Source: Lyngbya sp. HA4199-MV5
GTDB lineage: Bacteria > Cyanobacteriota > Cyanobacteriia > Leptolyngbyales > Leptolyngbyaceae
Reading direction: 5' to 3'
DNA length: 64,000 nt
Assembly: GCA_019359375.1 (NCBI GenBank)
Contig: JAHHHL010000005.1
Coordinates: 124,001-188,000 of the forward strand
The notes under the pieces were generated by a model. That model was not told the origin of the DNA and ran no database searches. It saw only the letters and a list, made by a program, of their open reading frames with translations. Below, in pieces: positions 1 to 57,722 of this stretch; the stretch's first letter is position 1; the number at the start of each line of letters is the position of its first letter. The position numbers were made by a program, and so were the translations under genes.

Positions 1-156
1 CGTCAACAGTCCAGCGATCGCCTCTGGTATACCCTCAACTGTGATCCGCTGGCGTGGCGATGGGTGGGACGTTTTGAGGCAAGGGGTGGTGGATATGGGG
101 AGTGGGGAGTGGGGAGTGGGGAGTGGGGAGTAGGGGAAGCAGAAGAAGAGTTTTGA
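1..156 (+). CDS. C-terminal fragment of an unidentified gene
   Basis: An open frame runs in from the window edge and stops at 154-156. Its first 27 or so codons read as ordinary protein (it includes LWYTLNCDPLAWRWVGRFEA). The last 20 or so are translated from a GGGGAGT heptamer tract, giving a low-complexity Gly/Glu/Trp tail. I do not recognise the family. The original stop codon may have been lost when the repeat arose, so the tail may be a read-through extension rather than a conserved domain. The sequence left of the window would be needed to identify it. Confidence 0.4.
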   Translation, partial: RQQSSDRLWYTLNCDPLAWRWVGRFEARGGGYGEWGVGSGEWGVGEAEEEF

Positions 157-400
157 GTTTTGGGTTAGGAGGGCGGAGAAGTGAGGGAGGAGGGAGGAGG
201 GATGGAAAAAGTTTTGAGTTTTGAGCTTTGAGTTTGTCCTGCTGCCTCCCCTGCTCCCCTTGCTTCCCTGCTCCCCTTGCCTCCCCTGCCCTCTGCTCTC
301 TGCCTCCTGCTAACAACTAAAAACCAACAACTAAAAACTTTTCTTGCCCTCTGCCTTCTGCCCTCTGCCCTCTACCTTATAAAGTGGGCATTCTATCAGC
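95..400. repeat. Cluster of heptamer tandem repeats
   Basis: Several adjoining tracts have a 7-base period: GGGGAGT (about 96-130), TTTTGAG (about 150-230), a C-rich CTCCCCTG-like tract (about 240-300) and TGCCCTC/TGCCTTC (about 345-375). These are short tandemly repeated repetitive (STRR) sequences as known from filamentous cyanobacteria. Apart from the end of the first gene, nothing else is seen before the start at 450. Confidence 0.85.
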
Positions 401-9029: not shown

Positions 9030-10367
9030 CTATTCCTCAAGCAACTGCCTAAACCTCTCATCTTCTCGAATAGCATCAAAATCCGAATCAGTCTTTGCTT
9101 TCTCTCTATAGTCAGCATTCAAGTTGATTGCCTCTCGGAGATGCTTAACTGCCAATTCAACTTCTCCTTGTGACCCACAACTACAAGCTTTACTATATGA
9201 AGCTCCATCCAAGCCTAGCTTAAGGACAAGAGCTTTGTCGTGAGATGCAATCGCGGCGGCGTACTGCTGCAAAAACTCTAATGCAATGCCTCGGTTGCTC
9301 CAAGCCTCCTGATATTCTGGTTTGAGTTCAAGAGCTTTGTCGAAAGCAGCGATTGCAGCAGTGTAAAGTTGTAAGCTTCCTAATGCAACACCTCGATTGT
9401 TCCAGACTTCATAGTAGTCCGGCTTGAGTTCAAGAGCTTTGTCGAAAGCAGCGATTGCAGCAGTGTAAAGTTGCAAATTTCCTAATGCAACACCTCGGTG
9501 GTTCCAGACTTCGTAATAATCTGGGTCAAGCTCAAGAGCTTTGTCGTAGGCAGCGAGCGCTTCCTTATATCGAGCTTCATAGAAAAGAGCCTTGCCTTGA
9601 TTGAAATAATCGTCGGGAGTTAGAGTCAATTTGGGATTAGCAGCTTGAAGGGTTTCAAGCTCTGTAGTAATTGCCTGGACTCTGGGTAGATTATCAGCAG
9701 CAACAGGCTCTTTAATTGATGCAGGGAAGAGCGTGGGAAGCTGTTGAGAGAGTTGCGTCACCCTTTCTTGTACTCGTTGTAAATCTAAAGCAGCTTTGTC
9801 AAATTTAGACTTGGTTTCAGTGCTCAAGCTGTTAAGTTCTACTTGTGCAATGGCAGTCTGCTCTTTCAACGCTTTCAAGACCTGCTTTGCCTCTAAAACC
9901 ATGCCTTCAAGCTGTTTTTTTGTCTCAGAAGTCACCTCTTCAATTTCTTGCTTCGCAGCACTAATTTGCTCTACTGTCTCTCTTTTGATTTCTTCACCCG
10001 ATTTTGTAATTTCAGCCAGCAACTCACTCAGTACGCTGCGCCGCAGCAGCCAGAAACCAAGAACCGTCAGAATGGGAAACAGCGTTAAGACGACTAGCAA
10101 AACATTGAGCAGCGTTGTCGTGTGGCTGAAGGCACGATCGACCTCAGCTTGGACACGATCGCCGATCACTTTGCTCTCTTCTAAATCTTTTTTAATTAAT
10201 TCGTGCAGCCGTTTCTCTTCGCGGAGTTGCTGTAATTCTTGCTGTTGTTGCAGGTTCAGCGATGCCGACGTTTGCGGAACAGGCGATGGCTTGGGTTGAG
10301 CGATCGCAGGCGTAACTGTGACCAACAAGCCTGATAGAACAGCGATCGCTTGATATCTAAACCTCAT
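9030..10367 (-). CDS. Membrane-anchored TPR protein with coiled coil
   Basis: About 445 residues from ATG 10367. A signal-like hydrophobic segment (AIAVLSGLLVTVTPAIA) is followed by a Gln-rich coil (LNLQQQQELQQLREEKRLHE). Then come a transmembrane helix (TTLLNVLLVVLTLFPILTVL, about residue 85) and a long charged coiled coil (about 110-215). The C-terminal half has at least four TPR units, each reading A-Y/F-DKALEL-PDYYEVWNHRGVALG or close to it. Such proteins usually act as scaffolds, with the TPRs binding a partner. The middle TPRs are nearly identical at DNA level. The frame extends to a TTG at 10409, but the ATG gives a better signal sequence. Confidence 0.8.
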   Translation of the reverse strand: MRFRYQAIAVLSGLLVTVTPAIAQPKPSPVPQTSASLNLQQQQELQQLREEKRLHELIKKDLEESKVIGDRVQAEVDRAFSHTTTLLNVLLVVLTLFPILTVLGFWLLRRSVLSELLAEITKSGEEIKRETVEQISAAKQEIEEVTSETKKQLEGMVLEAKQVLKALKEQTAIAQVELNSLSTETKSKFDKAALDLQRVQERVTQLSQQLPTLFPASIKEPVAADNLPRVQAITTELETLQAANPKLTLTPDDYFNQGKALFYEARYKEALAAYDKALELDPDYYEVWNHRGVALGNLQLYTAAIAAFDKALELKPDYYEVWNNRGVALGSLQLYTAAIAAFDKALELKPEYQEAWSNRGIALEFLQQYAAAIASHDKALVLKLGLDGASYSKACSCGSQGEVELAVKHLREAINLNADYREKAKTDSDFDAIREDERFRQLLEE

Positions 10368-23219: not shown

Positions 23220-23465
23220 GGAGTAGGGGGGGTGAGGGTGTGGGGTGTGGGGTGTAGGGTGTAGGGTGCGGGGAAAGATAAAGGGGGAAGGATAAAGGCT
23301 AAAGGCAAGAGAGTTTTTGGTTTTTAGTTTTTGGTTTTTAGAAGGAGTCAGGAACAGCTCAGGCACTAACGACTAACAACTAACAACTCTTAAGAAGCTG
23401 ACCGCTGAGCGCTAAATCAACTCCTCACTCCTCACTCCTCTCTCCTCACCCCTCACTCCTCTCCC
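23220..23465. repeat. Heptamer repeats between cupA and cupS
   Basis: Tracts of GGGTGTGG/GGGTGTAG (about 23235-23270), TTTTTGG/TTTTTAG (about 23312-23340), CTAACAA (about 23368-23388) and CTCACTC (about 23415-23460), all with period 7. They make the 250-bp cupA-cupS spacer unusually long for an operon. Confidence 0.85.
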
Positions 23466-23468
23466 CAG

Positions 23469-24761
23469 CTACCGATAGTCCTGCTGCTGAATATTACGCA
23501 GCCGTGCTTCGGGTCGTTTGAAGCGATCGAGTTGTGCCTCAAAGAAGGCTCGGTTTGCCTGGAGATGTTTAGGGTTGGGGTCGTCAAGGGGGTAGAGGAG
23601 TGCGGTGCGTAGTGCCTGGATGACGGCGGAGGTGACGCAGTACATCGATCGCTGAAAGCTAACGCCCAATTGGATGAGCATGTCATCTTCGCCGCGACAG
23701 TGCTTGCCGTAATAGTCCACCAGGTAGGGCGGTAAGAAGTGCAGCATATCCTGCATTAACAGGGTGGGTGGAATGCCTGCCGTGCCGACGGGAAACACAT
23801 CTGCGTAAAGAATGCCAAAGTGAAAGTCCTTCTGCTCTTCAGGGACTTGCTTTGCCTGTGCGTTGTAAGATTTGGTGCCCCGGAAGGGTGAGGTGCGGTA
23901 GAAAACGGCTTCTACATACGGTAATGCCGCTTCGTAGAGCCACATAAACCCTTTCGACTTGGGAATAATTTCGTAGCGCTCGCCTCGAATGTAAACGTGG
24001 TGGTAAATGGGACGACCCGCGATCGCAAAAATGCCGTTCACCAGGAAATTCATGGCATCGGGCACGCTCGCTATTTTGCCTTCATCGTACAAATCCGACA
24101 TCTCGAAAAAGACTGGAGCCATAATTTCCCAAAACAGCCCCAGGTTAGAGTAGTACGACATCTGGCGGCACTGCTCCAGAAACAAATCGGGAAACAGCTT
24201 GTACAGACCCAACATCGCCGGATTGCCTTTGAAGTAGGCTTTGATTGCGCGATCGGCGTTCGCCTTATATTCATCACTGTCCAGGTAGGGGTCAAACTGC
24301 CCACCCATACCCCGATGCCACAGCATCGCCCGCATACACTCTTCGGCAAACTCCATGTTGATGCGATCGTGCCAGAGGTGATGGAACAAGCGGGGCATTT
24401 TAATGGTTTCCCCTTTCTCCATAAACGCCAGCAGCTCAGGATGTGCCGTTGCCTGTCCTCGCCAGATCCGTAGATCGGCATCATCGCCTGCGTAATGGTT
24501 GTGCAGGTCTAAATACTCCTTGGGCAGAAAGTATTTGAAAAACGGCAGTGGATTCAGAAACTCTCGCTCTGCAATGTAGAGCAAATCGCGCCAGTAAAAA
24601 TCCATCGGCACCGCATACGCCTTGTACAACCCAATGATTTGCATCAGGTTCTCTGGCGTATCTGGCAACATCGCACCACCCGCTTCCAGGCGATGCACAA
24701 CATCAGCAAACTCATGCTGAGACGGAGGGAGAATAGTTTTAGTAGGGGTTGCAGTGGTCAT
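23469..24761 (-). CDS. cupA: CO2 hydration protein CupA (ChpY/ChpX family)
   Basis: 430 residues from ATG 24761 (MTTATPTKTILPPSQHEF). This is a full-length Cup protein: LLYIAEREFLNPLPFFKYFL, HHLWHDRINMEFAEECMRAM and FHFGILYADVFPVGTAGIPP mark the family. CupA binds the distal end of the NDH-1MS membrane arm and converts CO2 to bicarbonate vectorially with a zinc site, as part of the carbon-concentrating mechanism. Pairing with a FAS1 gene favours CupA rather than CupB. The frame is open 94 codons further upstream through a 21-bp minisatellite to a TTG at 25043; I regard that extension as untranslated or optional. Confidence 0.93.
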   Translation of the reverse strand: MTTATPTKTILPPSQHEFADVVHRLEAGGAMLPDTPENLMQIIGLYKAYAVPMDFYWRDLLYIAEREFLNPLPFFKYFLPKEYLDLHNHYAGDDADLRIWRGQATAHPELLAFMEKGETIKMPRLFHHLWHDRINMEFAEECMRAMLWHRGMGGQFDPYLDSDEYKANADRAIKAYFKGNPAMLGLYKLFPDLFLEQCRQMSYYSNLGLFWEIMAPVFFEMSDLYDEGKIASVPDAMNFLVNGIFAIAGRPIYHHVYIRGERYEIIPKSKGFMWLYEAALPYVEAVFYRTSPFRGTKSYNAQAKQVPEEQKDFHFGILYADVFPVGTAGIPPTLLMQDMLHFLPPYLVDYYGKHCRGEDDMLIQLGVSFQRSMYCVTSAVIQALRTALLYPLDDPNPKHLQANRAFFEAQLDRFKRPEARLRNIQQQDYR

Positions 24762-24844
24762 GGTAGAAAAAGTTTTGAGTTTTAAGTTTTGTTCGCGAAG
24801 TGTCTCCGGAGATATTTCGAGTTTTGAGCCTGGAATATTGAAGT

Positions 24845-25113
24845 CTGAACTCGGAGTATGGCGCTTGGAACTCGAAAGGTTGAGCTTGGAACTCGAAAGA
24901 TTGAGCTTGGAGGTCGGAAGGACGTACCTGGAGGTTGAAGCATCACGCTTGGAACTCGGAGTATCGAGCTTTAAGGTCGAACGGTTGAGGTTAGAACTCG
25001 GAGCATCGAGCTTTGAGGTTGGAGTGTCGAGCTTTGAGGTCAAAAGGTTGCGCTTGGAGCCCGGAGCACCGAGCTTAGAGGTCGGAGTGTCGAGCTTGGA
25101 ACTCGGAGTATCA
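24845..25113. repeat. 21-bp minisatellite, about 12-13 units
   Basis: Units resemble TTGGAACTCGGAGTATCGAGC with substitutions but almost no length change. Because 21 is a multiple of three and the unit lacks stops, the tract is open on both strands. On the minus strand it is in frame with cupA, reading as 7-residue units such as SSKLNLS and SKLDTPT. It occupies the ndhD3-cupA spacer. Confidence 0.9.
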
Positions 25114-25139: not shown

Positions 25140-25228
25140 ATTTCACGCATTCTTCAGCCTTCAGCCTTTAGCCTTTAGCCTTTCCTACTCCCCACTCTCT
25201 ACTCCCCACTCCCTACTCCCTACTCCCA
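25140..25228. repeat. Heptamer repeats reaching into the ndhD3 3' end
   Basis: CCTTTAG (about 25163-25185) followed by CTACTCCC/CCACTCT (about 25187-25228). The second tract encodes the last 14 or so residues of NdhD3 (GVGSREWGVESGE), so the annotated C-terminus is repeat-derived. Confidence 0.8.
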
Positions 25229-26717
25229 TTGCCGCTTGATCTCCCATCGCCACTTGCTGACCACTACTGATGGGCAACGCTGCCACCAGTGCCGTCGTCG
25301 TTGGCTCACTCCAGCGCAGCAGCCAGGATGGTTGTACACCCAGAAAAATAATAAGGGCGACTAACACGAGAGCGGGAGTTTGCTCTGCCCAGGTCACATT
25401 TGGATAGTAGGCAGTCGCGTTGTCGAGTTTGCCGAAGCAGGTGCGGTTGAGCAAAATGACGAAATAAACAGCAGTCAACCCGCTTGCGATGATGCACAGC
25501 AGCGTGGGAATGGGGAAGACGGGAAAGCTGCCCTGGAAAACCAAAAATTCTGCAATGAAGCCAACCAGACCCGGAATGCCAGCGCTTGCCATGCCAGCCA
25601 GAATGAGCAAAGCACTGGTTAGCGGCAACCCACGAATGGGATTCAACAAGCCATTGAGCTTGTCCAGTTCACGGGTGCCTACCTTCGCCTCGATGACCCC
25701 GACCAGGTAGAACAGCATTGCCAGAATCAAGCCGTGGCTGACCATCTGACCGATCGCACCCAGCAAACTCAACGGTGTTCCCGCAGCACAGGCAACCAAC
25801 ACATAGCCCATATGCCCGATCGAGCTATAGGCAACCATGCGCTTGATGTCTTTTTGAGAAATCGCGGTGAGAGAGCCGTACATCACAGTGACAACGCCGA
25901 CGATCGCCAACCCCGGCGACACCAGCGACCAGGTTTCTGGAAACAACTGCAAGCCAAACCGCACAATGCCGTAGGTGCCCAACTTTGCCAGAATACCACC
26001 CAGCAGAATCGCCACGGGTGGAGAAGCTTCCACATAGGCATCGGGCAACCAGGTGTGTAGGGGAATGAGCGGCGTTTTGATGGCAAATCCAATGAGTAGG
26101 ATGGTGAGCAGAATGAGTTGGGCTTTGAGCGGCAAATCCTGCGTATGAATCGCGCCATAGTCAAAGCTGGATGCACCGCTGAGCCAGGTCAAGCCCAGGA
26201 AGCCAACCAAAATCAATACGCCCGAAACGGCAGTGTAGATGAGGAACTTCATCGCCGCGTAGTCTCGCTTGCTACCACCCCAGATGGCGATCATCAAGTA
26301 AAGCGGAATCAGTTCAACCTCATAGAACAGCACAAACAGAAGCAAATTCTGCGCCAGGAATGCGCCCGCAATGCCGCCACAAACTAGCAGGGTCAGCGCA
26401 TAGAACAAGCGCGATCGCTCTATCTTCTGACTGCTGCCATAAACCACAATCCAGATCAGCAAACTATTCAGCGCCACCAACGGTAGCGACAGACCATCTA
26501 CGCCCAAACGGTAGGTCAACCCCAGCGAGTCCAGCCAGGAAAGCGACTCCTGCATCTGAAACCCAACCTGACTGAGATCGAACTGAGCCATCAAAAACAG
26601 TGTCCAGAGCAGATTCAGGCTGGCGATCGCCAACGCCACCAACCGCGATCGAGCTTCGGGAAGAACACAAAGCGCCAACGCACCAGCAATGGGGAGCCAA
26701 ATGAGGGTACTGAGCAT
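25185..26717 (-). CDS. ndhD3: NAD(P)H-quinone oxidoreductase subunit 4, CO2-uptake type (NdhD3)
   Basis: 510 residues, about 14 membrane helices, antiporter-like NDH-1 subunit. Conserved features include the charged helix residues in LLFVLFYEVELIPLYLMI, Lys in GFAIKTPLIPLHTWLPDAYVEASPP and the broken-helix motif in YSSIGHMGYV. ATG 26717 starts the family-typical MLSTLIWLPIAGAL; the longer frame upstream reads through a palindrome and repeats. Paired with ndhF3-type and cup genes, it belongs to NDH-1MS rather than the respiratory complex. The C-terminal tail after about residue 490 comes from a heptamer tract. Confidence 0.93.
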   Translation of the reverse strand: MLSTLIWLPIAGALALCVLPEARSRLVALAIASLNLLWTLFLMAQFDLSQVGFQMQESLSWLDSLGLTYRLGVDGLSLPLVALNSLLIWIVVYGSSQKIERSRLFYALTLLVCGGIAGAFLAQNLLLFVLFYEVELIPLYLMIAIWGGSKRDYAAMKFLIYTAVSGVLILVGFLGLTWLSGASSFDYGAIHTQDLPLKAQLILLTILLIGFAIKTPLIPLHTWLPDAYVEASPPVAILLGGILAKLGTYGIVRFGLQLFPETWSLVSPGLAIVGVVTVMYGSLTAISQKDIKRMVAYSSIGHMGYVLVACAAGTPLSLLGAIGQMVSHGLILAMLFYLVGVIEAKVGTRELDKLNGLLNPIRGLPLTSALLILAGMASAGIPGLVGFIAEFLVFQGSFPVFPIPTLLCIIASGLTAVYFVILLNRTCFGKLDNATAYYPNVTWAEQTPALVLVALIIFLGVQPSWLLRWSEPTTTALVAALPISSGQQVAMGDQAAMGVGSREWGVESGE

Positions 26718-26756
26718 GGGAGGTAAGGGGTGAGGGATGAGGGATGAAAGATTACT

Positions 26757-26788
26757 TTGTAGGGACGTTACATGTAACGTCCCTACAA
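26757..26788. repeat. Perfect 32-bp palindrome
   Basis: Half-site TTGTAGGGACGTTACA followed by its exact inverse. It sits in the ndhF3-ndhD3 spacer, and its left part (on the minus strand) contains the TAG stop codon of ndhF3. The same core occurs imperfectly inside the 87-bp repeats at 10672 and 29042, so it is a family of mobile palindromes rather than a one-off terminator. Confidence 0.9.
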
Positions 26789-28618
26789 GGACGACCACAC
26801 GACGAGACAGCCAACGAGTGCAGCACCTACCACGATCGTCAGTGCATAGGACTGTGCCTGTCCCGGTGTGCTGTACTTCAAGCCCTGACCACTAAAGAGA
26901 GTAGCGATACCCAGGAAGTTAATGAAGCCATCCACGACGTAGCGATCGAACCAGAACGTCAGACGCGAGACGAGCGCCACTCCAAACACAATGCTCATGC
27001 GGTAAATCTGAGCGGTGTAGAAGTCATAGGCAAGCAAATCCTGTAGCGGCTTCCAGGGAAACTGGACGGGTTTGGGAATCGCGTTGCCCAGATACACCAC
27101 GGCACCGAGGCTGCAACCGAAAATGCTTGACCAGAGCAACAGTAGCGCTACGTCTTTGTTCAACGCTCCCCAGGCGGGTAGCAGCGACAGTGCTTGCAGT
27201 ACCAGTGGCACATGCAGTACAACGCCGAGCAACACCACCATCGGCAGCGCCATCAGCCAGTGAATTTCGGGCGATCGCTGCGCCATTGGGTTTGCCTGCC
27301 CGCCAAAGATGCGGCTAAACACACGCACCAGGCTAAAGGCAGTCAGGCTATTCACCAGCAGCACCACCCCCACGAGCCACGGTTGCGTTGTCCACAGTCC
27401 GTCCGCTAGATCCAGCAGCGCCCAAAAGCTCCCAAAGGGCGGCAAAGCAATCAACCCGGCGATGCCAACCAAAAACGCGATGCCCGATACCGGACGACGT
27501 GACCACAGACCACCCAGTTGAGTCAGATCTTGCGTAATGCTGTTCCAGATGATGGCACCAATGCTCATCACTAGCAGCGCGATCGCGACCGCATGGGTCA
27601 ACACCAGCAGCGCCGCCGCTTCCGTATGTCCTGTACCGACCGCGATGAAGACCAAGCCCATATAGGCGCTCACCGAGTAAGACAGGGTACGCTTGAGATC
27701 AATTTGGGCGATCGCAATGAGTGAACCGCCGATCGCGGTAATGCCACCAATCCATACCAGCGTTGCCATTACCACAGGCGATAGCATCAGCACAGGAGTC
27801 AGCTTAATCAGCACCCAGGCTCCCGTTGCGACCACCACCGAATTCCGCAGAATGGTACTGGGCAGTGGACCTTCCATCGCTTCATCCAGCCACAGATGCA
27901 GCGGAAACTGAGCGCATTTCCCCATTGGTCCCGCAATTAACGCCAGCCCTACCAGAGTCATTACAGTTGGATCAACCGTAGCGGTCTTTGCCCACTCCGC
28001 CAGTTCTGTAAAGTTCCAGGTGCCTGCTAATGGCAACAGCGCAATGACACCCATCAGCAGCACCAGATCGCCAACCCGCTTCGTGAGAAACGCATCGCGG
28101 GCACCTGTGACTACAAGCGACTGATTGAACCACAACCCCACGAGCAGATAGGTGCCCAGGGTCAGAATTTCGAGAATGATATAGCTGAAGAACAACGAGT
28201 TGCACAGTACCAGGGCACACATCCCACCTTCAAACAGCGCCAGCAGTGAGAAAAACCGCGCCCAACCCCAATCCATCTCCATGTAGCCGATCGCGTAGAT
28301 CTGCGCCAGCAAATTTAACCCTGTAATCAGCACCATTGCACCGACCGTCAAAGAAGATGCCTCCAGCGATAGGGTCAAATTGAGGTTGGCAACATTGAGC
28401 CACGGAAAGAAAAATTGCTGTGGCGGCTGATGCCACGTTGCGGGCAAAGCTATCAGCCCATGCAAAAACGCCAAAAGCGTCATCATGACATTCGCATAGC
28501 CCGCAGGTCGTGGTCCCGTGCGCCGTGCGATCGAGGGAAACCAAAGGACAGAAAGTGCAGCACCTGCCAAGGCATAGCAGGGCACTAACCAAACACTCTG
28601 GAGGAGGAGTTGGTCCAT
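26783..28618 (-). CDS. ndhF3: NAD(P)H-quinone oxidoreductase subunit 5, CO2-uptake type (NdhF3)
   Basis: 611 residues, about 15-16 membrane helices with the long lateral-helix region at the C-terminus typical of NdhF. Recognisable parts are YAIGYMEMDWGWARFFSLLALF, GPMGKCAQFPLHLWLDEAMEGPLPSTILRNS (the proton-channel lysine loop) and DLKRTLSYSVSAYMGL. It is shorter than respiratory NdhF1 and encoded with ndhD and cup genes, so it is the CO2-uptake paralogue. It is first gene of the operon; palindromic candidate operators lie within about 115 bp upstream. The stop codon lies in a 32-bp palindrome. Confidence 0.94.
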   Translation of the reverse strand: MDQLLLQSVWLVPCYALAGAALSVLWFPSIARRTGPRPAGYANVMMTLLAFLHGLIALPATWHQPPQQFFFPWLNVANLNLTLSLEASSLTVGAMVLITGLNLLAQIYAIGYMEMDWGWARFFSLLALFEGGMCALVLCNSLFFSYIILEILTLGTYLLVGLWFNQSLVVTGARDAFLTKRVGDLVLLMGVIALLPLAGTWNFTELAEWAKTATVDPTVMTLVGLALIAGPMGKCAQFPLHLWLDEAMEGPLPSTILRNSVVVATGAWVLIKLTPVLMLSPVVMATLVWIGGITAIGGSLIAIAQIDLKRTLSYSVSAYMGLVFIAVGTGHTEAAALLVLTHAVAIALLVMSIGAIIWNSITQDLTQLGGLWSRRPVSGIAFLVGIAGLIALPPFGSFWALLDLADGLWTTQPWLVGVVLLVNSLTAFSLVRVFSRIFGGQANPMAQRSPEIHWLMALPMVVLLGVVLHVPLVLQALSLLPAWGALNKDVALLLLWSSIFGCSLGAVVYLGNAIPKPVQFPWKPLQDLLAYDFYTAQIYRMSIVFGVALVSRLTFWFDRYVVDGFINFLGIATLFSGQGLKYSTPGQAQSYALTIVVGAALVGCLVVWSSL

Positions 28619-36963: not shown

Positions 36964-37176
36964 CTAAACTGGCTCTGGAATGGTTTGCGGAATCGTTTCG
37001 GGTACCGTTTGCGGAATCGTTCCGGGTACAGGTTCAGGCACAGGACCAGGGATTGGCTCAGGCACAGGACCAGGAATCGGCTCAGGCACAGGACCGGGAA
37101 TTGGTTCGGGTACAGGACTGGGACCTGGACTGGGCGGTTCGGGCATGGGGACGGGTATATCGGGAGCGTAAATCAT
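36964..37176 (-). repeat. 24-bp tandem repeat, possibly coding for a Pro-rich peptide
   Basis: Units of GGCTCAGGCACAGGACCAGG type repeat between about 37022 and 37115, with related half-units on both sides. On the minus strand a 70-residue frame reads MIYAPDIPVPMPEPPSPGPS and then PEPIPGPV repeats and PQTVPETI units. Such P-E-P repeats occur as periplasm-spanning linkers, but here there is no domain at either end. The plus-strand frame is Arg/Gly-rich and less likely. It may be a microsatellite only. Confidence 0.55.
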
Positions 37177-37371: not shown

Positions 37372-37638
37372 ATGCGAGATGCAGAAGACTATTCGTCCTC
37401 CTATGCACGTATTCCAGCACGAGTCTTGGGATGCCTACGTGGTGGCGAAATTACCATTAGCCTGTTTCCCGGTCATGGAATAGTGGTGACACAAGCGATC
37501 CAGACTCATCTCGTTCCTGAAACCTTGAGAATGCCCAATAGTGAATTTGATGTGGTAGTCAGAAATCCTGACGCAGAAATAATCAGGGTCTTGCGTTGCG
37601 GCGAATCATGCTCAGAAATGGATAGATGTAATGAGTGA
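37372..37638 (+). CDS. Small protein of unknown function overlapping the decarboxylase gene
   Basis: 88 residues from ATG 37372 (MRDAEDYSSSYARIPARVLG). The middle (GEITISLFPGHGIVVTQAIQ) and end (EFDVVVRNPDAEIIRVLRCG) look like alternating beta strands. Its stop (37636-37638) overlaps the start of the decarboxylase gene at 37631, suggesting coupling. No family is recognised and the ribosome-binding site is weak. A TTG at 37357 would add five residues. Confidence 0.5.
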   Translation: MRDAEDYSSSYARIPARVLGCLRGGEITISLFPGHGIVVTQAIQTHLVPETLRMPNSEFDVVVRNPDAEIIRVLRCGESCSEMDRCNE

Positions 37639-39169
37639 GGTTCAACAGAATTCTGTGCGCTTGCAAACCGATATGCCTTTACTAAAGGCTCTTCAAATAT
37701 GTGCTCACAAACCTCATGCGCCGTTCTATGCACCGGGACACAAGCACGGGCAGGGCATTCCAACCCCTTTAGCTGCGTTGTTTGGGCAGCAAGTGTTTCA
37801 AGCCGATTTGCCAGAACTGCCGGAGCTGGATAACTTGTTTGCGCCGCAAGGGGTGATTCAGGAAGCACAAGCATTGGCAGCAGAAGCGTTTGGAGCCGAT
37901 CGTACCTGGTTTTTGACGAATGGCTCCACCGCTGGTATCGTCGCCGCCATCCTGGCAACCTGCAATCCGGGTGACAAAATTATCCTGCCGCGCAATATTC
38001 ATCAGTCAGCCGTGTCAGGGTTGATCTTGTCCGGCGCTGTCCCCATATTTGTCCAGCCAGATTATGATTCCATCCTGGATCTGGCTCATAGTCCTACGCC
38101 TGCGGCAGTGGCGGAAGCACTGTCACTGCATCCAGACGCAAAAGCCGTGCTGATGGTGTATCCCACCTATTACGGCGTGTGCGGGGATGTGGCAGCGATC
38201 GCTCAACTGGCTCATCAACACAACCTTCCCTTACTGGTGGATGAGGCACACGGCGCACATTTTGCCTTTCATCCAGAGTTGCCGCTCGCCGCACTCGCAG
38301 CCGGAGCAGATTTAGTAGTGCAGTCTACCCATAAAGTGCTGTCGGCAATGACCCAGGCGGCAATGCTGCATACCAGAGGCGATCGGGTGAGGGGCGATCG
38401 GGTGAGCAAGGCACTTCAACTTGTGCAGTCCACCAGTCCCAGTTACCTCTTGCTGGCTTCGCTGGATGCGGCACGGCATCAAATGGCAACGCAGGGCAAG
38501 TTACTGCTGGAACACACGCTAAAACTGGCAGGCAGGGCACGATCGCGCCTTGAGCAAATCCCAGGGCTGTCAACGCTAAAACCGGAGCAGGCAGGGCGAT
38601 CGGCTGGGTTTCAAGCGCTCGATTGTACCCGTTTAACCGTGACCGTGACGGGATTGGGCGTGGATGGCTTCACGGCTGACCAGATCTTGAATGAGCAATT
38701 GGGAGTCACAGCAGAACTCCCCTCGCTGCAACATTTGACGTTTATTGTGAGTGTGGGCAACACCGAAGCAGATATGAAAGCATTAGTACAAGCGTTTGAG
38801 GCGTTGGCAGAAAAGCAAGGGGGCACCGCAGAGGCGCGGAGGCGCAGAGAGCAACAGTCAATCCCACCCTACTCTTGCCGCCTTACTCCTCACTCCTCAC
38901 TCCTCACTCCTCACCTCTCGCCCCTCACCCCTCGCGCTGCCTTCTTCGCCAATACTGAAACGGTGTCGATCGCCCAAGCCATCCATCGCATCAGCGCTGA
39001 GTTGGTGTGTCCCTATCCACCGGGAATTCCCGTGTTGATGCCAGGTGAGGTCATTACGGCAGAGGCGATCGCTGACTTGCAAATGATCCTGGCGATCGGT
39101 GGCTTGATTAGCGGTTGCGCTGATCCCAGCCTTGAAACATTAAAGGTGGTAGCGTCTTCTCATCTGTGA
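37631..39169 (+). CDS. Orn/Lys/Arg decarboxylase-type PLP enzyme with repeat insertion
   Basis: 512 residues, fold-type I PLP enzyme of the short bacterial Orn/Lys/Arg decarboxylase group. Visible are HAPFYAPGHKHGQG near the N-terminus, NGSTAGIVAAI (phosphate-binding), LLVDEAHGAHF (Asp contacting the PLP ring) and QSTHKVLSAMTQ with the Schiff-base Lys. The C-terminal domain (ELVCPYPPGIPVLMPGEVIT) is normal. Between EALAEKQ (about residue 395) and ANTETVSIAQA (about 439) lies a foreign-looking block of about 40 residues translated from heptamer repeats. HIP1-containing GGCGATCGGGTGAG is duplicated near 38380. Substrate is not assigned; such enzymes feed polyamine synthesis. Confidence 0.9.
   Translation: MSEVQQNSVRLQTDMPLLKALQICAHKPHAPFYAPGHKHGQGIPTPLAALFGQQVFQADLPELPELDNLFAPQGVIQEAQALAAEAFGADRTWFLTNGSTAGIVAAILATCNPGDKIILPRNIHQSAVSGLILSGAVPIFVQPDYDSILDLAHSPTPAAVAEALSLHPDAKAVLMVYPTYYGVCGDVAAIAQLAHQHNLPLLVDEAHGAHFAFHPELPLAALAAGADLVVQSTHKVLSAMTQAAMLHTRGDRVRGDRVSKALQLVQSTSPSYLLLASLDAARHQMATQGKLLLEHTLKLAGRARSRLEQIPGLSTLKPEQAGRSAGFQALDCTRLTVTVTGLGVDGFTADQILNEQLGVTAELPSLQHLTFIVSVGNTEADMKALVQAFEALAEKQGGTAEARRRREQQSIPPYSCRLTPHSSLLTPHLSPLTPRAAFFANTETVSIAQAIHRISAELVCPYPPGIPVLMPGEVITAEAIADLQMILAIGGLISGCADPSLETLKVVASSHL
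38822..38938. repeat. In-frame repeat insertion inside the decarboxylase gene
   Basis: A GAGGCGCGGAGGCGCAGAG motif (about 38830-38848), common in cyanobacterial intergenic repeats, is followed by CACTCCT heptamers (about 38886-38935). The block keeps the frame and adds Arg-rich then Thr-Pro-His-Ser-Leu repeats (LTPHSSLLTPHLSPLTP). Confidence 0.85.
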
Positions 39170-57663: not shown

Positions 57664-57722
57664 GGGGAGAGGGGAGAGGAGTGAGGAGTGAGGAGTGAGG
57701 AGGGGTGAAGGCTCAAGGCTAA
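57660..57722. repeat. GAGTGAG / GGGAGAG heptamer tract
   Basis: GAGGGGAGAGGGGAGAGG followed by GAGTGAGGAGTGAGGAGTG, period 7, directly after the FemAB-like stop codon. Confidence 0.85.

Follow-up and report, generated by a model that had tools for sequence, protein, structure and literature searches.

The interdomain linker of a cyanobacterial Orn/Lys/Arg decarboxylase is encoded by tandem repeats that are dispersed through the same genome, lie in frame and change rapidly between related species, and comparable in-frame arrays recur in decarboxylase linkers of other lineages and in loops of RadA, MutS and further proteins. This looks like a recurring route from repeat DNA to protein sequence, followed in the decarboxylase of several lineages as well as in DNA-repair and other core proteins. 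We consider it likely that dispersed arrays of the STRR type repeatedly colonise disordered loops and replace one another there, with selection preserving the reading frame.

A repeat-derived linker in a decarboxylase

The window, the whole stretch of 64,000 bp analysed here, is C82:124001-188000 of the 6.9-Mb cyanobacterial genome G000. An open reading frame on its forward strand (37631..39169, +) encodes a 512-residue protein whose profile matches place it in the Orn/Lys/Arg decarboxylase family, and this is the only full-length copy in the genome, two further matches being short and weak. The major PLP domain OKR_DC_1 (PF01276; residues 16-325, 37676..38605, +) scores 252.9 bits against a cutoff of 27, and the C-terminal domain OKR_DC_1_C (PF03711; residues 440-486, 38948..39088, +) scores 45.5 bits against 24.2. 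The protein is thus predicted to be a fold-type I PLP enzyme of this family. By sequence its nearest solved structure is 2x3l (E 1.1e-62), and the top Foldseek matches of its model are lysine, ornithine and arginine decarboxylases together with mycobacterial Rv2531c; none of the NCBIfam cutoffs for lysine, arginine or ornithine decarboxylases is reached.

Between the two domains lies a linker of 38 residues (residues 394-431; 38810..38923, +), delimited by homologue anchors and model confidence and derived from repeats. It begins with a purine-rich octamer array, GCAGAGGC/GCGGAGGC/GCAGAGAG (38828..38851, +), recognised from the sequence and from comparison within the genus, and continues into a pyrimidine-rich array of 7.6 tandem copies of the 7-bp unit CCTCACT (38881..38933, +), found by tandem-repeat detection. 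The final CCTCACT units overlap the LTPR codons of a conserved (L/I/V)(S/T)PR motif, which homologue comparison places at the start of the C-terminal part (38924..38935, +). In an AlphaFold2 model built from 46 sequences the linker has the lowest confidence of the whole protein (mean pLDDT 45-58 in linker blocks vs 81-98 in the adjoining ones, and below 50 at residues 410-420). Residues that are invariant in 46 aligned homologues, including D204-E-A-H-G208, H210, S232, H234 and K235, are all preserved, and none falls within the block. A sequence-only reading of this DNA had described a repeat block set in frame at a probable domain linker, with undamaged catalytic motifs on either side, and in these respects the open 512-residue frame, the position of the arrays and the conserved residues bear it out.

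The heptamer is a dispersed repeat, as that reading had also proposed. Allowing up to two mismatches, the CACTCCT double unit has 20 matches in the window vs 0.40 expected, four of the 20 falling within the block. Tandem-repeat detection and pattern counts give a second array of the CCTCACT family at 23419..23463 (+) and a third at 57670..57704 (-). Across the 6.9-Mb genome the 16-mer CCTCACTCCTCACTCC has 254 overlapping matches at up to one mismatch, and blastn of the block against its own genome finds at least 41 further places, in all of which the match lies in its 3' half (40 of 227 candidates scored). The second repeat of the reading, GGCGCGGA, was said to fill intergenic spaces of the window; its three occurrences there vs 2.69 expected are at chance level. 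It is one unit of the octamer array, and the array pattern is found at 18 places in the genome at up to one mismatch, some of them overlapping and one of them being the block itself. Reversed-pattern controls are unusable for both genome searches, because CCTCACTCCTCACTCC is identical when read backwards and the reversed octamer array is the same repeat in another phase. With its tandem 7-bp units and many dispersed copies in a cyanobacterial genome, the block has the traits of STRR repeats.

Some other repeats of the window were noted in passing. An ORF at 25185-26798 (-), by eye similar to a NADH dehydrogenase subunit, carries the heptamer-derived tail GVGSREWGVESGE, apparently by reading into an array at 25184-25227. 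About 12 copies of a 21-bp repeat (24850-25112) lie at the 5' end of the ORF at 23469-25043 (-) and give SSKLDTP-like peptides, possibly upstream of the true start. A small ORF at 36964-37176 (-) contains 24-bp repeats encoding PVPEPIPGPVPEPIPGP, and a 102-bp tandem repeat at 9322-9556 (2.3 copies, 88%) perhaps belongs to a protein-repeat gene.

Decarboxylase linkers across the genus and the class

All seven genus members (G000 and six other genomes) have the gene in frame, and their linkers occupy the same place in the decarboxylase, varying between 25 and 38 aa. The octamer array is clear by eye in four of the seven species and degenerate in a fifth, and the linker of G005 contains a purine-rich repeat other than the octamer. 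The downstream half of the linker varies between species: a strong heptamer array is detected by the lag-7 test in G000, G004 and G001, and the linkers of G002, G003, G005 and G006 fail the strong test, that of G006 being without any obvious repeat. The block had been expected to be absent from close relatives, and the idea of an insertion was to be abandoned if close homologues had the same block as a conserved folded segment. Neither describes what is seen, since all six congeneric genomes have a variable, fast-changing linker at that place. By comparison of the sequences, the block is best read as an old loop with young contents, neither missing in near relatives nor a conserved folded segment.

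The same holds at a greater distance. The gene is present in 355 of 388 sampled genomes of the class, and 156 distinct linkers were taken from fetched loci, which represent part of the gene-bearing genomes; L040, L045 and L145 were left out for weak anchors, and loci identical around the linker were merged. A linker is present in all 156 of these distinct cyanobacterial homologues, with a length of 18-81 aa, a median of 26 and a lower quartile of 23. Because the linkers of homologues already have a median of 26 aa and that of G000 has 38, the net gain is about 12-20 residues and not the roughly 40 first supposed. The core of the original description, in which translated repeats form the linker between undamaged catalytic parts, is supported; a single private insertion into an otherwise uninterrupted enzyme is not. 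The sequence-only reading was right in kind and too narrow in scope, with one of its repeats wrong and the size of the addition overstated.

A period of seven nucleotides gives a measure of how often such arrays occur. A period-7 array was counted as strong if 17 or more of 21 positions match at lag 7. By this measure 17 of the 156 linkers contain one, vs a mean of 0.24 and a maximum of 2 in 200 codon shuffles; the other 139 do not. Extending each linker by 12 nt downstream raises this to 19 of 156, vs none of the 156 gene bodies (5164 control windows). Since codon shuffling preserves both amino-acid and codon content, the period is not explained by a preference for Pro/Ser or Arg. Lags 8 (8 linkers), 14 (10), 16 (8) and 21 (6) are raised as well, as expected of octamers and of heptamer multiples. 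A second round of shuffling gave the same mean, and most of its hits come from one array linker, L124, which is so pyrimidine-rich that 33 of 200 of its own shuffles pass the lag-7 test.

The 19 array linkers come from six cyanobacterial families and the 17 from five (by family labels, with L037 unplaced), and the repeat families vary by lineage: CCTCACT in G000, CAAAATC in L034, GGAAGAA arrays in the G265 linker and GGGGAGT in two genomes of one genus. The linker of G021 combines GGCGTCA, AATTCAA-like and CCCCACT arrays and has at least 45 other matching pieces in its own genome (40 candidates scored), one of which is 93% identical to it over query positions 48-148, a stretch that covers three different arrays. 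In G349 the linker (L172:1156-1308) is a dispersed repeat that is not tandem, again read in frame, with at least 48 other matching pieces in that genome, some overlapping on both strands (40 candidates scored). The conserved LTPR codons (CTCACTCCTCG-like) were considered as a seed of the heptamer array; matches across the boundary at lag 7 (0.340 vs 0.294 for permuted anchors) are accompanied by an excess at lags 5, 6, 8, 9 and 10 too, and the signal is not specific.

Arrays in RadA, MutS and other proteins

The decarboxylase is one of several carriers in G000. Loci were assigned to 30 of the 42 block-matching places, and one of these is the block itself, leaving 29. An open frame of at least 150 codons runs across the array in 12 of the 29, and an open frame crosses the array in three of ten further loci taken from the CCTCACTCCTCACTCC search. 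The insert is bracketed or covered by profile matches in six of the 29 loci (MutS, MutL, NadE, MoeA, a CHAT protein, a WD40 protein) and in three of the ten (RadA, an SNF2 helicase, a histidine kinase). Probable further cases are an AIR-synthase-like protein, another array within the SNF2 gene and an oxidoreductase-like protein that has no Pfam match. Not every open frame is a gene: that of L074 looks spurious, the array of L063 precedes the ABC domain, and the array of L058 is spanned only by a stop-to-stop frame. RadA of G000 reaches an equivalog score of 660.9 bits (cutoff 403) despite an insert of 73 residues. The octamer-derived peptide TAETQRRG is common to MutS and to the decarboxylase of G002. 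To judge from these frames and profiles, repeats appear to have been inserted in frame into unrelated protein genes.

The WD40 protein (L048:3-3065, on C39) contains six in-frame heptamer arrays, of which the final four fall where the propeller repeats lie.

Both RadA and MutS show the pattern across genomes. Strong period-7 arrays are found in the RadA loop in 9 of 28 genomes measured, including five of six within the genus, and period-7 arrays in the MutS loop before the Walker A strand in 13 of 29, including seven of seven within the genus; codon shuffles of the RadA and MutS loops give none. Of 30 loci each, L271 and L285 were dropped for RadA, with weak anchors, and L300 for MutS. RadA inserts are 34-82 residues long in the genus. 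Among the 22 genomes outside it they measure 13-31 residues in 13 and 34-69 in G019, G022, G031 and G041, and those of g5 (four genomes) and G007, at 54-82 residues, are unlike heptamer arrays and fail the lag-7 test. MutS inserts have 22-76 residues in the genus vs a median of 14 elsewhere.

Turnover is fast at all three sites. Within the genus, insert identity is 0.28 for the decarboxylase (7 genomes), 0.37 for RadA (6) and 0.29 for MutS (7), calculated per longer sequence and hence including length change, and the flanks of the three inserts are 0.77-0.97 identical. Genomes with longer inserts at one of the sites tend to have longer ones at the other two (Spearman 0.63, 0.52 and 0.71; n 19-28, uncorrected for phylogeny). 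Correlation with a proxy for repeat load was set aside as support, because the proxy is a candidate count from a repeat-containing query and is partly circular. In G021 both RadA and MutS (L318/L319) are interrupted by a frame break, which in each gene lies downstream of the in-frame repeat insert. These breaks may be sequencing errors; as they lie outside the arrays, the arrays were rejected as their cause and the breaks are no evidence for slippage.

Origin of the arrays and comparison with known repeats

How might dispersed repeats come to lie in genes that still work? The decarboxylase linker consists of purine-rich octamers and, after them, pyrimidine-rich CCTCACT heptamers, both of them dispersed tandem repeats of the cyanobacterial STRR kind. 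At this site arrays would be gained, lost, lengthened and swapped, probably through slippage and through recombination or template switching between arrays; it is their dispersal, recurrence and turnover that point to movement by slippage and exchange. No array was caught passing from one site to another. Insertion into a gene would usually destroy its function, and survival would need three things together: a disordered surface loop between folded parts, a coding strand free of stops and a total length that keeps the frame. Once a loop has an array, other arrays would keep replacing it, so that the loop is old and its sequence young, a pattern that seems to hold for the linker of the decarboxylase and for the loops in RadA and, ahead of the Walker A strand, in MutS. 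The arrays are presumably translated, and in the protein they would be neutral rather than useful.

The unit length has consequences of its own. As 7 is not a multiple of 3, a heptamer array gives one seven-residue peptide whichever frame it is read in, and it passes through all frames in 21 bases, so that an orientation is open or closed whatever the landing frame. The CCTCACT array reads as repeating TPHSSLL, and its complement has a TGA in every cycle. In silico, one unit fewer makes the 512-residue protein stop at residue 467 and one unit more at residue 445, points that lie within the C-terminal domain or where it begins. Since a one-unit change shifts the downstream frame, this and the orientation rule together would leave only stop-free, frame-keeping states, in loops, among working genes. 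About 55% of array consensus units are stop-free on a given strand vs 69% of random heptamers; with units no more stop-free than random ones, there is no sign of general selection for translatable units.

Compound arrays have a marked polarity. In 38 stretches of G000 (173.5 kb, 144 arrays, intergenic elements included), neighbouring classified arrays run from purine-rich to pyrimidine-rich 20 times and in reverse never (examples are window 23233-23464, window 90-382, L049 and L096), from purine to mixed 11 times vs 0 in reverse, and from mixed to pyrimidine 15 times vs 2. The same polarity is seen in 15 of the 17 array linkers (two are level), in 33 of 36 linkers of at least 33 aa, in 9 of 9 RadA and 13 of 13 MutS array inserts and, weakly, in short linkers as well (50 of 77 at 25 aa or fewer). 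In coding DNA it could arise partly from amino-acid needs, though the surveyed stretches include intergenic elements. Strict order of this sort, together with the folding of 11 of 26 compound elements at z below -2 (26 of 27 were taken, one being excluded by a position and length filter), is what would be expected if the compound array were a functional nucleic-acid element, such as an mRNA hairpin, pause signal, G-quadruplex or binding site, that needs the polarity and is tolerated by the protein. Against this, the decarboxylase linkers fold no better than shuffles: an mRNA hairpin was rejected for the linker of G000 (z -0.54), and only one of nine chosen linkers lies below -2. A perfect-palindrome element was likewise rejected, the arms matching at 4.48 of 7, a value that 1998 of 2000 permutations equal or exceed, vs 4.97 of 7 when arms are permuted among elements, and exchanging the two halves has little effect on fold energy. 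We regard a nucleic-acid function as unlikely. A compound element of strict polarity that is resident in protein loops, moving or being copied as a unit, settling in disordered loops of core proteins and exchanging arrays with its copies elsewhere, is a possibility that we hold only tentatively. Were it to exist, many housekeeping proteins would share a common pool of linker sequence that is renewed in concert.

The protein side offers other accounts. Ordinary evolution of low-complexity linkers, with selection for Pro/Ser/Thr- and Arg-rich flexibility mimicking intergenic repeats, accords with a linker in every homologue measured, with many linkers that are Pro-rich and have no strong array, with the weak polarity of short linkers and with the partly compositional array of L124; it does poorly with a 7-nt period that is not a multiple of 3 and is nearly gone after codon shuffling, with the dispersal of the same arrays through the genome and with TAETQRRG in both MutS and the G002 decarboxylase, and is improbable on balance. 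A contingency locus for phase variation, in which gain or loss of one heptamer toggles the C-terminal domain of the enzyme, draws on the truncations predicted in silico for a one-unit change. It is very improbable given that all seven species of the genus are in frame (one genome per species), that the gene is metabolic and not a surface gene, and that the same effect would fall on RadA or MutS, where switching off is probably harmful. For a block that is never translated, being spliced out, bypassed or the product of an assembly error, no supporting points were found. A removed block needs no open frame, yet the frame is kept throughout the genus, in all seven members, and also where linkers of other families contain arrays, and the breaks in RadA and MutS of G021 fall downstream of the arrays and not inside them; such a block is hardly credible.

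Repeated colonisation of loops by STRR-type arrays, the reading preferred here, has several partial precedents. STRR repeats were reportedly described in cyanobacterial RNase P RNA by Vioque in 1997, inside a structural-RNA gene; the present arrays too lie inside genes, but in protein genes. They are likened to STRRs as dispersed, tandem 7-bp units in cyanobacteria, by these traits and not unit by unit with the named Calothrix STRRs, and they differ in standing in frame within protein genes, repeatedly at the same loops, and in being joined by octamers and mixed compound arrays.

Heptanucleotide repeats of Calothrix are mentioned in passages of one account, which describes GGGNATC-type heptamers of Xanthomonas and Nostoc as mainly intergenic and under-represented in coding regions (PMC4692102). 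TAACTGA heptamer arrays are likewise described, in the sections available of another, as mainly intergenic, with one orientation containing stops and the other open as LSVISYQ; a few lie within ORFs of Microcystis and Cyanothece, and the terminating orientation, it is suggested there, might also be tolerated between subunits of modular proteins (PMC4679880). Both resemble the present case as dispersed heptamer arrays, but the available portions of these accounts report no recurrent in-frame arrays in core proteins (PMC4692102, PMC4679880). In the P6b stem-loop of the Nostoc tRNA-Leu intron, according to an excerpt, one class of seven-nucleotide repeat has been replaced by another at one place in independent lineages (PMC4476775). 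Replacement of repeat classes at a single site is the shared feature; in Nostoc the repeats sit in an RNA and ensure that its stem pairs, whereas here the host is a protein linker and pairing is unsupported (PMC4476775). Rickettsia palindromic elements (RPE), in the part of the source that was available, are dispersed repeats in frame within unrelated genes, giving translational fusions (PMC10969869). The likeness lies in dispersed repeats being in frame in unrelated protein genes, but RPE are palindromic, of about 150 bp and with a conserved encoded peptide, whereas the present arrays are tandem and fast-changing with no single consensus (PMC10969869). A palindromic unit with a conserved encoded peptide does not describe them, arm complementarity being no higher than chance and insert identity 0.28-0.37. 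A limited literature search, with few subscription papers, found no report of recurrent in-frame heptamer arrays in loops of core cyanobacterial proteins, which is weak evidence of absence. New relative to known STRR arrays is their role as recurrent, fast-renewed protein loops in core genes.

These loops offer a clear bacterial system for following noncoding repeat DNA into protein, in which the RadA, MutS and decarboxylase loops can be tracked with their conserved flanks as clocks. Insertion frequency, loop tolerance and array exchange between distant sites become testable. Such blocks can also lead homology searches, alignments and gene annotation astray in this group: among the weak matches of the decarboxylase query in sister genomes, three covered only the repeat block.
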